This document shows, one piece after another, positions 23,475 to 27,552 of a DNA stretch of 64,000 bases. Origin of the DNA: Trileptium ribeirensis (taxonomy: Eukaryota; Nematoda; Enoplea; Enoplida; Thoracostomopsidae); NCBI GenBank assembly GCA_030248225.1, contig JASANE010026487.1:35464-99463 (forward strand), in the 5' to 3' direction. The stretch's first letter is position 1, and every line of letters starts with the position of its first letter. The notes beneath the pieces were generated by a model, which was given only the letters and a program-made list of their open reading frames with translations, was not told where the DNA came from and did no database searches. The position numbers were made by a program, and so were the translations under genes.

Positions 23475-26357
23475 ATGACGGACTCGAATTGGGATAGAGG
23501 TAGTGAAACTGGGTCCTCAGAGGGTTCCGATTGGTTGTCCGACCTTGAGTCTGAGCAGGGAGTTAACCCTCTTGAGCGTTCACTTAACGGGATAGAACAA
23601 CAGTTAACTTGGTCAGAGGGGCAGCAAGGTCCACCATGGAAGGATCGTAACCACCCAGTATGGAATCTATATGCGTGGACCAGCGGGTTAGAAATGGTGG
23701 GTCGAGAGTGGATGCACCCCACTAGTGTAGTGGTGGTAGACGCCCGTGACCAAATTGAGTCAGCGATAGGCATTATCGAACGGTCAGCTACCAACTTAAT
23801 AGCGTGTGATATGGAAGGTGTAAACATCAGCTACCGACAACAACAGCAATTTCGAGAAGCATCGGAAAAATATTTAGACACGCCTGAGAAGGATCCGTTT
23901 GACGTCTGCTGGCGATGGTTGCCACGTAACGCACGACTCTGGGTCGATCCAAAATGGTTAGCCTATGCAGCAGGTTGGCAACGTACAGCAGCGGCTACAT
24001 TGCAAGTCGCCACGATTGAAGGAGTTGTCATCATTTTTGATTTAATGGCGCTTGGTCCGGATATGCCTGCAGCGTTATATGCGTGTATTGCGTCAGAAGC
24101 ACGACTCAAAATATGGTGGGCGATGAATAACGATGAAGGATTCTGGAACGTGCGATATTTGCAATACAATCAGCCGTTCCCACATGCTAATTCTATGGAT
24201 TTGCAAGCAGCAGTAGGTCGTCGATATAGTTTGCGACGATTTTTCTTCGTGTTTACCGGACGCATTCGACAAGATCCGACGCCGTATGGTACAACATTAT
24301 TAGGAGGAATTCGTGTACGGCAAGTCGGTCCTGGAAATTGGGTGCTAAACTTTGAAGAGTATCGACGATTCGTCCGATATAGTGCCAATGATGTCATGCT
24401 CATTGATGGAGCATTATTTATTGCACATCGACGTGGTACGCCTCCACCGATGGGACGTCACGACGTTAATCGCTTATGGCATTTGATTGAGCAATTTCCG
24501 CGCATATTTCGAGCGTTTACAACGGATGCGCGTGGCTTAACAGTACGAGTTAATCCCGACGCCGTATCAAATCGTCGTGGTTATCAAGAAAGTATTGCCG
24601 AAAAAGTGGCTCAATGTGCTGGTTATTGGCGGCGCAAGGGCCGATGGAATGTCGAAGAGCATAGCAGCCTGTATCAAGTTAACGATCAGGATAATGGCGA
24701 AGCTGCTTTCGTAATTGACCTTGGAGGAAACTTACATCGCGATACTGATCGATTATTTGCAGCAACGGCAGCGCAATTAAATCGACAATTGGGTCAAAAT
24801 ATGCGTTTGGATCCCATTGACTTGGATCATACGCCGGTTAGCGAAATTCCGGAATCCGAAATGCGCTATAATCGCGATTATCTTCCGGATGGTATGGATG
24901 AATTTAACGCATGGTATGAGGCGGAAAAACGACGACGAGCTAAGCGCAGTCGACGTCGTTCACGTATACAGCGACACCAAGATGTCGTCGCTGGTCCTGG
25001 AGATGAAACGGAGTTAGAGGAACGGCGTGAGGATATGTTCGACGAAGAAATGAACCAGCAAGCTATCCAATGGGAAACCGAGGGAGTGCCTGTGCGTGAA
25101 ATTCGCGACCGGATAATGATAGCTTATGATGAGCATTATGGCGGTGCATGTGTTGTCACCCGCCCAGCTGTATTGCAACGTTTGGATCGTCAGGTATTAC
25201 GGGAAGAAGACGCAGTTTCTAATGCTTCATCAGCTGCTACAACACCGCCTGCGGTTCGCACACCGGAACCTGCATCAGATGACTCGGTACGCATAATAGG
25301 ATCTGTAACGGTCACTGCTAGTCCCGTAGATCCTGTCCAATACCATTCTACTTGGGTCGAAAACGAGCAGATTGCTCATGAAAACCAGCGAAAGTGTCAG
25401 AAAATGGGAGGATTAGCAGCGCAGGAAAGCCTAGCAACCCTGATGGGGATTACTGTAGCTTCGGAATCCGTGACTGAGTCGGTTGGTAGAAGGAAAACCC
25501 CCTTACGGATTGTGAGTGTAGATTCGTCCGCAGTAACATTACCAGCTCAGGAAACAATGGATCAATCCACGTTAAGTAGGATACGGTCTGAATCAGAAAC
25601 GGCGGTAGTGTCCTCGAGTGGGTTAACTTTACCAGTGTCTTCCGCGTCTAGTTTAGTAACAGTAGCTCAAGCTGAGCCCGCGATGTCAGATATTGTGCCA
25701 ATGACGGTACGACCAGTTAGGGGACGAGGGAGAGCTAGTATTATGTTCCCATCTAGCCTTCCCCAGTCGGCGCGTATGCGTTTGTCGCACGCTATTCGAG
25801 CGCCGTTTCAACAGCCTATTTCAGTGGTGAATCCAGCACGACCGCGTGTCATGGATATGCTCACTAATCAACTAGTTACTGTCGCCTACGAGCACGTTCA
25901 ACAACAAGAACAAGTTGCGGCTGTTGCCGAACAACCGCCTACTACAATGGTTACGAGTGGTCAAGAAATTTCGCCTTCGTTGCACATTGAATTGCAGTTG
26001 AGAAATTTACGTGGTACGGAGTTAGCACAAGTGCGTGAACAATTACAACAAGCCGTACCTCCATCAGCAGTGCAATTAGATGGTATGCTGTTAATGCAAC
26101 AAATGCAATTGAATACACGAGTCGATACTGCGTTGCATTATTTGCGTCGAATGGACGAAAGCTACCGAGCTCAATTGGAAGCCCGGCAAATGGAACTCGA
26201 TCACGCACATCGTCAGAATGCTGAACTCAAACTGCGATTACGAGAGAGAGTCGCCGGAACGCAAAACGCGGGGAACGCAAACCAAAAAGAAAACGCAACG
26301 AACTGCAAGTCGTCAAGCGCGTGCAGAACGTCGGTACGACTACGAAAAAGTAACTAG
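23475..26357 (+). CDS. Element 1 accessory protein with DEDDy 3'-5' exonuclease domain (first frame)
   Basis: The ATG at 23475 (MTDSNWDRG) is chosen because the longer frame upstream lacks an ATG. Within the first 320 codons lie all five landmarks of an RNase D/EXD1-type DEDDy exonuclease. Exo I is ACDMEGV (Asp and Glu, codons 112 and 114). Exo II is KIWWAMNND (final Asp, codon 220), with NSMDLQAAV downstream, a usual family feature. Exo III is YSANDVML (Tyr 302 and Asp 306). Such enzymes use two metal ions to trim RNA or DNA from the 3' end. The remaining ~640 residues are a basic patch (KRRRAKRSRRRSRIQRH), a long S/T/P-rich region and a helical Q/R-rich end. The frame closes at 26357, but similar sequence continues in the +1 frame from about 26218. 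The gene occupies the position of env. Substrate unknown. Confidence 0.8.
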   Translation: MTDSNWDRGSETGSSEGSDWLSDLESEQGVNPLERSLNGIEQQLTWSEGQQGPPWKDRNHPVWNLYAWTSGLEMVGREWMHPTSVVVVDARDQIESAIGIIERSATNLIACDMEGVNISYRQQQQFREASEKYLDTPEKDPFDVCWRWLPRNARLWVDPKWLAYAAGWQRTAAATLQVATIEGVVIIFDLMALGPDMPAALYACIASEARLKIWWAMNNDEGFWNVRYLQYNQPFPHANSMDLQAAVGRRYSLRRFFFVFTGRIRQDPTPYGTTLLGGIRVRQVGPGNWVLNFEEYRRFVRYSANDVMLIDGALFIAHRRGTPPPMGRHDVNRLWHLIEQFPRIFRAFTTDARGLTVRVNPDAVSNRRGYQESIAEKVAQCAGYWRRKGRWNVEEHSSLYQVNDQDNGEAAFVIDLGGNLHRDTDRLFAATAAQLNRQLGQNMRLDPIDLDHTPVSEIPESEMRYNRDYLPDGMDEFNAWYEAEKRRRAKRSRRRSRIQRHQDVVAGPGDETELEERREDMFDEEMNQQAIQWETEGVPVREIRDRIMIAYDEHYGGACVVTRPAVLQRLDRQVLREEDAVSNASSAATTPPAVRTPEPASDDSVRIIGSVTVTASPVDPVQYHSTWVENEQIAHENQRKCQKMGGLAAQESLATLMGITVASESVTESVGRRKTPLRIVSVDSSAVTLPAQETMDQSTLSRIRSESETAVVSSSGLTLPVSSASSLVTVAQAEPAMSDIVPMTVRPVRGRGRASIMFPSSLPQSARMRLSHAIRAPFQQPISVVNPARPRVMDMLTNQLVTVAYEHVQQQEQVAAVAEQPPTTMVTSGQEISPSLHIELQLRNLRGTELAQVREQLQQAVPPSAVQLDGMLLMQQMQLNTRVDTALHYLRRMDESYRAQLEARQMELDHAHRQNAELKLRLRERVAGTQNAGNANQKENATNCKSSSACRTSVRLRKSN

Positions 26358-27552
26358 CGAGTCCAGCGATAGTGATCGTGAAGCGAGACGACGACAGCGA
26401 GGTAAACAACGTGCCTCATCAGTTATTGTACCACGACAGCGACAGGAAGTAGTTCATCATGTGGAGCAACAATCAACGTCGGCAGCAACTTTTGCGCCGT
26501 CTTTCACGTCAACGCCAGCCGTGTCAACGTTAACGGTGGCTACAGAGAAACAAAGAAAGGCTAGCGATGTGGAAATTTTTGAGGAGGCATCAGCTGTTAC
26601 GCCCACGAAAGTGGTTTCAACGGCATCGGAGGAACAAGGAGCGACTGCTATTGCAGCAGTGCCACCGGCTGTGCAACCAGCGTCATCACAACGCGATGCT
26701 GGTCAATTAGCGCTACCGAGCGAACGACGAAGTGGAACGGAGATGACTTCACTACATTTCAATGGTAATGACTTACGAACCGGTCGTATTACACCGTTTG
26801 GTAACCGGTTAATTTACCACTACTTCACGTTTTATCAACCTGGGTTCAATGAGCCAATGCCACAACGTATGAACATGTTGTATCAGTATCTGCGTGATGA
26901 ATTGAAACGCGAATTCAAGCAAATTGGTGAACGTGGACGGCATATTAGCGAACGTGATTTAATTGACATTTTCTTCAAATGGGAAGAACGCGTTCGAAAT
27001 ATTATTTTTCAAAAACAGTGGGACGTTATTATTACGCCAGAACTATACGATCTTTTCGTACGTCGATTAGCGAATATGATACGTGGCTTCGTTTACGAAA
27101 TGCTGCGACGGCGCAGCATTGCGATACAGTATTTCCCACAACTACTTTTTACTGGCTTTAGTCGACGAAAATGGGAAAGCGACGTCCAACGCGATATGCG
27201 ACGTTACGCTGATACGCGATCGGGAATCTCGAGTCAAGTAGCCCGAGTTCGTGACTATGTTTTTCTGAACACGGATTATCAGCGTCTACGCGACGAAGTT
27301 GACAGGTTGGAAAGTCAACTCAATGACCAACAAACGCAGGGAGACCCAGCGCACGAGCAACGGGAACAATTACAACAACTGATTGCTCGAGTTTCGAGAC
27401 AAACGCGACAACAATTTTCTGCTGCGTTCTTGAACGAACTGCAATTCGTTACACAATGGTATGATCGACGTCACGATTGTCCAGGGCAACCATTATCTAT
27501 GCCCCTGGAACACGATTGGCCGCTATATTTGCCGAAACCACGTCGGAACTAA
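26218..27552 (+). CDS. Element 1 accessory protein, C-terminal part (second frame)
   Basis: This overlaps the end of the exonuclease frame by 140 nt in the +1 frame. The helical charged sequence of the first frame continues better here (from about 26250), so a one-base frame change is the simplest explanation, with one original protein of roughly 1,350 residues. Contents: an arginine/lysine-rich segment, a T/A/P/S-rich linker, then from about 26750 a compact helical block with FTFYQPGFNEPMPQRMNM and RRLANMIRGFVYEMLRRR, and a final coiled-coil-like stretch (RLRDEVDRLESQLND). I recognise no family. The basic composition suggests nucleic-acid binding or particle association. Confidence 0.65.
   Translation: MLNSNCDYERESPERKTRGTQTKKKTQRTASRQARAERRYDYEKVTSESSDSDREARRRQRGKQRASSVIVPRQRQEVVHHVEQQSTSAATFAPSFTSTPAVSTLTVATEKQRKASDVEIFEEASAVTPTKVVSTASEEQGATAIAAVPPAVQPASSQRDAGQLALPSERRSGTEMTSLHFNGNDLRTGRITPFGNRLIYHYFTFYQPGFNEPMPQRMNMLYQYLRDELKREFKQIGERGRHISERDLIDIFFKWEERVRNIIFQKQWDVIITPELYDLFVRRLANMIRGFVYEMLRRRSIAIQYFPQLLFTGFSRRKWESDVQRDMRRYADTRSGISSQVARVRDYVFLNTDYQRLRDEVDRLESQLNDQQTQGDPAHEQREQLQQLIARVSRQTRQQFSAAFLNELQFVTQWYDRRHDCPGQPLSMPLEHDWPLYLPKPRRN

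Follow-up and report, generated by a model that had tools for sequence, protein, structure and literature searches.

Analysis of a 64,000-nucleotide stretch of the Trileptium ribeirensis genome (contig JASANE010026487.1, positions 35,464 to 99,463; this whole stretch is referred to here as the window) revealed the region between 13547 bp and 30953 bp to be a Ty3/Gypsy long terminal repeat (LTR) retrotransposon of a multi-copy family, with a further open reading frame (ORF), designated ORF3, between pol and the 3′ LTR. ORF3 was under strong purifying selection and is functional in the family; its identity as a DEDDy exonuclease, suggested by the order of its motifs, is probable. The pol domains were arranged as in other Ty3/Gypsy elements (Asp_protease, RVT_1, RT_RNaseH, Integrase_H2C2, rve), and the paired TG...CA LTRs, target-site duplication and primer-binding-site-like sequence of this group were also present. 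The LTRs, genes and signals of the element described below are on the forward strand.

The 5′ LTR (13547 bp–16397 bp) and 3′ LTR (28646 bp–30953 bp), whose limits were set by eye, aligned as two repeat pieces: 13547 bp–15316 bp with 28646 bp–30412 bp (98.8% identity) and 15853 bp–16398 bp with 30409 bp–30954 bp (98.9% identity). TAATA flanked the element at both ends, and the polypurine-like sequence AAGGGGGG preceded the 3′ LTR. Between the two pieces of the 5′ LTR, and absent from the 3′ LTR, was a 536 bp insertion (15317 bp–15852 bp) with 51 bp inverted ends (TGCGGCG...CGCCGCA) and a duplicated TAA/TAAT; it was similar to a miniature inverted-repeat transposable element, a DNA transposon, that arrived later than the retrotransposon. 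The primer-binding-site-like sequence (16398 bp–16415 bp) adjoined the 5′ LTR and started with TGGTGGCC, which was found in all five aligned leaders. It was followed by gag (16596 bp–18339 bp), with a DUF7041/Retrotrans_gag-like part and then a CCHC zinc knuckle, both weak matches below the curated cut-offs, and by pol (18397 bp–22791 bp), encoding protease, reverse transcriptase (RT), RNase H and integrase. The end of pol (22708 bp–22785 bp) matched a PHD finger (PF00628, E 1.2e-5), just above the cut-off and over part of the profile only. The PHD core CGECGQS...YHFRC was present in 14 of 15 pol-end alignments, including that of the window copy (L001), with the alignment of L002 stopping short; the PHD match is therefore part of the element. 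Fusions of chromatin readers to Gypsy integrases have been mentioned (PMC12477816). The window copy was damaged, as gag was in two frames, the integrase contained an in-frame stop codon (21901 bp–21903 bp) and ORF3 was also in two frames.

These two ORF3 frames overlapped, the first being between 23475 bp and 26357 bp (960 amino acids from the ATG) and the second between 26218 bp and 27552 bp (444 amino acids). A previous sequence-only reading of this DNA treated 23475 bp–27552 bp as one ORF, which was not the case in the window; its description of an ORF in the env position (3′ of pol and 5′ of the 3′ LTR) containing DMEG, NND, SMDLQAAV and YSAND in this order was accurate, and there was an ATG at 23475 bp. 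A single ORF3 frame of 1384–1386 codons from stop to stop was found in 7 of the 20 other fetched copies (L004–L007 and L016–L018), and that of L005 encoded 1359 amino acids from the ATG. Searching the host genome (687 Mb, 20,229 contigs) with the 960 amino acid protein revealed at least 53 matches (48 of 752 candidates scored). A search with the exonuclease-like region revealed at least 149 stretches, some copies counting as two, with 67–100% identity to the L009 query (144 of 464 candidates scored). The element's pol was upstream of ORF3 in 17 of the 18 other fetched copies that had upstream sequence, L012 and L015 having been fetched without it. The end of pol and the spacer were directly before ORF3 in 16 of these 17; in L009 the spacer was separated from ORF3 by an insertion, with gag and pol beyond it. 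ORF3 therefore belongs to the element, and is not the one-off insertion that the previous reading had named as its refutation. The remaining copy, L013, is 5′-truncated and had no pol in the 6.4 kb upstream.

The ORF3 protein was 96–98% identical among copies whereas the spacer between pol and ORF3 in 16 copies had just 76–81% identity to that of the window. The ratio of nonsynonymous to synonymous substitution rates (dN/dS), a comparison that the previous reading had suggested, was 0.045 for the domain (ORF3 residues 95–345), which represents strong purifying selection. It was 0.046 for residues 346–560 and 0.104 for residues 561–925 (all three from 78 pairs of 13 stop-free copies), and 0.122 for residues 1–94 (66 pairs). 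The integrase end of pol gave 0.056 (seven copies, one with a stop there). For the domain, the more diverged pair L001/L009 gave 0.087, while a value of 0.125 was obtained for L010 and L011, which both contain stops.

The spacer contained a putative splice acceptor, ATTGCATTTTAGATTTCAG (23311 bp–23329 bp), and ATTTTAG(A/C)TTTCAG was located in the most conserved 30-nucleotide bin of the spacer (0.94). All 17 aligned copies had the acceptor AG (23328 bp–23329 bp), and 13 of them had TTTCAG. The acceptor was 146 nucleotides upstream of the ORF3 ATG, which was likewise present in all 17, and the stretch between acceptor and ATG was ATG-free in 13 of 17. A putative splice donor, G/GTAAGT (16541 bp–16547 bp, cut after the first G), was found 5′ of the gag ATG. 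Five leaders could be aligned (the window and four of seven fetched, the other three having no leader match); all had GTAAGT or GTGAGT downstream of the primer binding site and before the gag ATG, and two of these alignments stopped at the donor. This suggests that ORF3 may be expressed from a spliced, retrovirus-like mRNA that joins the leader donor to the acceptor 5′ of ORF3. A dN/dS of approximately 0.05 over many copies, together with the splice signals, argues that the ORF3 protein is needed by the element.

Residues 85–345 of ORF3 (23727 bp–24509 bp) probably adopt a DEDDy fold, to judge from their motifs and from position-specific scoring matrix (PSSM) and hidden Markov model (HMM) comparisons. 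The motifs were, in order, DxE (motif I, D112-M-E114, 23808 bp–23816 bp), a strand pair ending IIFDL, K212-x7-D220 (with the candidate motif II Asp at 24132 bp–24134 bp), SMDLQ and Y-x3-D (motif III, Y302-S-A-N-D306, 24378 bp–24392 bp). The order D112, E114, D220, SMDLQAAV, Y302 and D306 given by the previous reading was thus present, and agreed with the DxE, D and Y-x3-D of the PF01612 family, with atypical spacing and a weak motif II. A five-block PSSM chain, derived from DEDDy proteins other than ORF3 and with wide gap ranges chosen knowing the element, scored 26.6. Of 10,000 shuffles and 456 decoy windows, one each scored as high, as did 1 of 5000 shuffles in an earlier run. When the N-terminal strand-helix block was added as a sixth block, after hmmsearch had revealed it, the score was 32.1, and none of 10,000 shuffles or 476 decoy windows scored as high. 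Decoy windows of at least 60 bits (105 and 85 windows) were taken as RNase D itself and excluded. In the earlier chain run, 3 of 224 decoy windows, from two bacterial loci, beat the element with 75–139 bits, and these are probably RNase D frames missed by the filter. With hmmsearch, the domain ranked 9th among 2607 and 7th among 2451 reported sequences; 8 and 6 of the 5000 shuffles, and nothing else, were above it. The set also contained 319 decoy frames and nine other proteins of this and a second element of the window, 80 RNase-D-like decoys having been dropped. The program aligned VVVVDARDQIESAIGIIERSATNLIACDMEGV with the start of the DEDDy profile. Additionally, hhalign, unaided, set KIWWAMNND on KFLHAGSED of RNase D, with P-values that were not significant. 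The candidate catalytic residues were kept in all 20 copies in which the region was present, save for D112Y in L013, and all but one of the 13 stop-free copies used for dN/dS had all five. Across 41 rows, which included 20 older copies, D112 was present in 32/33, E114 in 31/34, D220 in 39/39, Y302 in 40/41 and D306 in 35/40.

A number of results weigh against an active DEDDy exonuclease. The spacing, which the previous reading called correct, was not typical: the first two Asp residues were 108 residues apart compared to 57 in Escherichia coli RNase D and 60 in Egalitarian; the second Asp and the Tyr were 82 residues apart compared to 66 in RNase D. KIWWAMNND lacked the usual His of motif II, and motif II was not scored at its site by the PSSM and was unsupported when taken alone (2214 of 3000 shuffles as high). 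For motifs I, II and III alone, 7 of 3000 shuffles and 55 of 450 decoy windows scored as high. The pol protein of the element, as the best of many windows, reached 23.2 versus 26.6 with five blocks and 26.1 versus 32.1 with six. An HMM search for the RNase D family, another check that the previous reading had named, gave no significant match to ORF3 (hmmsearch E-values 9.1 and 7.8). Nothing significant was found for ORF3 among Pfam, NCBIfam and PHROGs profiles, PF01612 having no match up to E 10, or among PDB sequences by single-sequence and profile search. The same was true of 5.8 billion proteins compared with the N-terminal 400 residues of ORF3 and the domain alignment, and of a search of viral contigs. 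Comparison with small DEDDy alignments by hhalign gave P-values of 0.33 and 0.25 (young copies) and 0.35 and 0.17 (41 copies), a PF01612 search of the host genome did not pick the element ORF, and two single-sequence AlphaFold models of ORF3 (pLDDT 36 and 37) had no usable fold. L013, whose domain is stop-free, has Tyr at D112. In the 20 older decayed copies, conservation of E114 (0.79) and D306 (0.74) was below the column median of 0.90, at percentiles 0.21 and 0.16 among columns; therefore the whole domain was conserved and the active site was not singled out. Of the Gypsy element with a DEDDy exonuclease described by the previous reading, the Gypsy element and an ORF3 in the env position that resembles DEDDy proteins were supported. 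The family and profile matches were not significant, and the identity as an exonuclease is therefore probable on weak statistics; we do not class ORF3 as an established DEDDy member.

The most likely single reading of these data is that ORF3 is an active 3′–5′ exonuclease on RNA 3′ ends. The whole explanation, to which we give moderate confidence, is that the functional ORF3 of this family would be made from the retrovirus-like spliced mRNA, using the acceptor 146 nucleotides before its ATG. Its first ~345 residues would contain a domain with an RNase H fold that belongs to the RNase D/EXD1/Egalitarian (DEDDy) type and is enlarged by an insert of ~48 residues. This domain would be an active 3′–5′ exonuclease because the metal-binding residues are kept in stop-free copies (1 of 13 lacks D112). 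The remainder of ORF3 may hold the domain on RNA, and the exonuclease could then trim or degrade RNA 3′ ends in the life cycle of the element, these being the ends of its own transcripts or of small RNAs directed against it.

The main rival is that the DEDDy fold serves for binding and not for cutting, so that the domain, like Egalitarian or EXD1, would bind element RNA and bring it to the germ line or export it from the nucleus. The closest motif resemblance by eye is indeed to Egalitarian (DCEGIN, KVIHDCRND, FDTQAA), motif II is atypical in having no His, and CERV, which the LTR element Cer1 makes from a spliced mRNA, shows that accessory proteins of this sort can function in RNA export (PMC10309623). 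We nevertheless consider this reading unlikely, as 12 of the 13 stop-free copies have the five candidate residues whereas the DxE of Bombyx EXD1 is replaced in the alignment. It is rather improbable that ORF3 encodes a conserved protein with an accessory or structural role and no relationship to exonucleases, its motif pattern having arisen by coincidence. Such a protein would agree with the lack of any significant library or profile comparison, the Asp–Asp spacing of 108 and the 26.1 reached by pol in the six-block test, but not with a chain score reached by 0–1 of 10,000 shuffles, nor with an HMM ranking in which the only reported sequences above the domain were 8 and 6 shuffles out of 5000, all decoys and other element proteins being below it. 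The N-terminal strand-helix-strand block, which the HMM found and the previous reader did not, also argues against coincidence. Finally, a degenerate envelope gene, to which the place after pol, the retrovirus-like splice signals and the env-like ORF of a neighbouring element in the window could point, is scarcely credible, since the domain is highly constrained and not degenerate. In addition, the 1359 amino acid protein of L005 has no transmembrane-like segment apart from a marginal peak inside the domain: a mean hydropathy of 1.6 or more is confined to the LQVATIEGVVIIFDL strands, whereas the env-like frames of the second element do have such segments. We accordingly do not regard ORF3 as an envelope protein.

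The capture of a cellular exonuclease, as proposed by the previous reading, was not shown. The host genome has its own PF01612 exons, which we take to resemble Rrp6, mut-7, EXD2 and EXD1/Egl; the element ORF was not among these matches and no donor was found. No sequence link between the host PF01612 exons and the element domain was found, and a recent capture is therefore unsupported. A host EXD1/Egalitarian-like gene was identified as two exons on contig C2404 (L026:1429–1728 and L027:1489–2229). By eye, it has DTE in motif I and Y-x3-K replacing Y-x3-D, and therefore may be catalytically impaired. Comparison of a host EXD1-like protein with 5.8 billion proteins revealed nothing significant. 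An exact copy of the nematode SL1 22-mer was not found in the host, and a search for COX1 revealed just one diverged stretch containing stops.

The second Gypsy-type element was located between 34774 bp and 61086 bp of the window. Its LTR-like ends aligned as 34774 bp–35119 bp with 57371 bp–57716 bp (98.8% identity) and 35120 bp–38266 bp with 57958 bp–61086 bp (97% identity). An env-like region (43995 bp–47308 bp), which has RKKR with a hydrophobic stretch after it and, close to its end, a strong transmembrane-like segment, was situated between the gag and the protease/RT frames, a place in which an env-like gene has been reported for planarian Burro elements (PMC6431247). Two frames were found 3′ of the integrase (54739 bp–56217 bp and 53384 bp–54622 bp). 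One encodes a NADAR domain (PF08719, E 2.1e-11) with a weak PDB match to YbiA (E 0.043); the other resembles, by eye, a related copy, and both appear to have an SGNH/GDSL-like tail without Ser. NADAR domains in Gypsy pol have been reported in Ectocarpus (PMC12477816).

The previous reading was not aware of any LTR element described as carrying a gene of this kind; however, DEDDy-type ORF3s were reported by Rodriguez, Kenefick and Arkhipova in 2017 in Juno and Vesta, two groups of LTR retrotransposons found in bdelloid rotifers, where they were acquired at least two times, and also in Athena (PMC5408684). That paper proposes 3′-end RNA processing and discusses an analogy to mut-7 and parallels with EXD1 and Maelstrom, and the finding is repeated in two reviews (PMC6431247, 2019; PMC5718144, 2017). 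Literature searches for DEDDy domains in LTR retrotransposons, which covered open-access papers and were judged partly from titles and the starts of abstracts, brought up only the bdelloid work and the reviews citing it. Provided that the DEDDy assignment holds, the present element is a further member of this kind and not a first.

As in the present element, Juno and Vesta have gag, pol and an ORF3 3′ of pol. Their ORF3 was assigned as RNase D-like DEDDy, an assignment that is probable for the present one; here the ORF3s are compared by their descriptions. The LTRs of Juno and Vesta are 159–551 bp compared to 2.3 kb here, and their pol contains a dUTPase domain, for which 18397 bp–21903 bp of the window had no match at E <= 1. 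Their DEDD is changed to DEED whereas the second Asp is kept here, and the length of their ORF3 differs from the up to 1359 amino acids of the present one. Intragenomic evolution in the rotifers was reported not to depart significantly from neutrality (PMC5408684), in contrast to the dN/dS of 0.045 here. The rotifer ORF3s were reported without evidence of selection or activity, whereas selection and splice signals were found here. It is doubtful that the element represents an independent acquisition, outside rotifers, of a catalytically active exonuclease similar to RNase D/Egalitarian, which would be expressed by retrovirus-like splicing, be selected as strongly as integrase and be needed for transposition, for example to destroy or trim silencing small RNAs.

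The Terminons/Athena Penelope-like elements also have a DEDDy-type ORF but belong to another retroelement class, with a Penelope-like RT, no integrase and a telomeric location (PMC6431247, PMC5408684). EXD1, Egalitarian and RNase D (PF01612) share with ORF3 the order DxE, strand pair ending FD, K-x7-D, DxQ and Y-x3-D; ORF3 differs in having no significant score to PF01612, a 48-residue insert, a motif II without His and a long extra C-terminal part. CERV of Cer1, taken here as unrelated, is likewise an accessory protein from a spliced LTR-element mRNA, and it acts in RNA nuclear export (PMC10309623). If the ORF3 domain is active, the family would offer a testable case of an RNA-processing enzyme on which a retrotransposon depends; if it only binds RNA, it would be comparable to Egalitarian and the Cer1 protein CERV.

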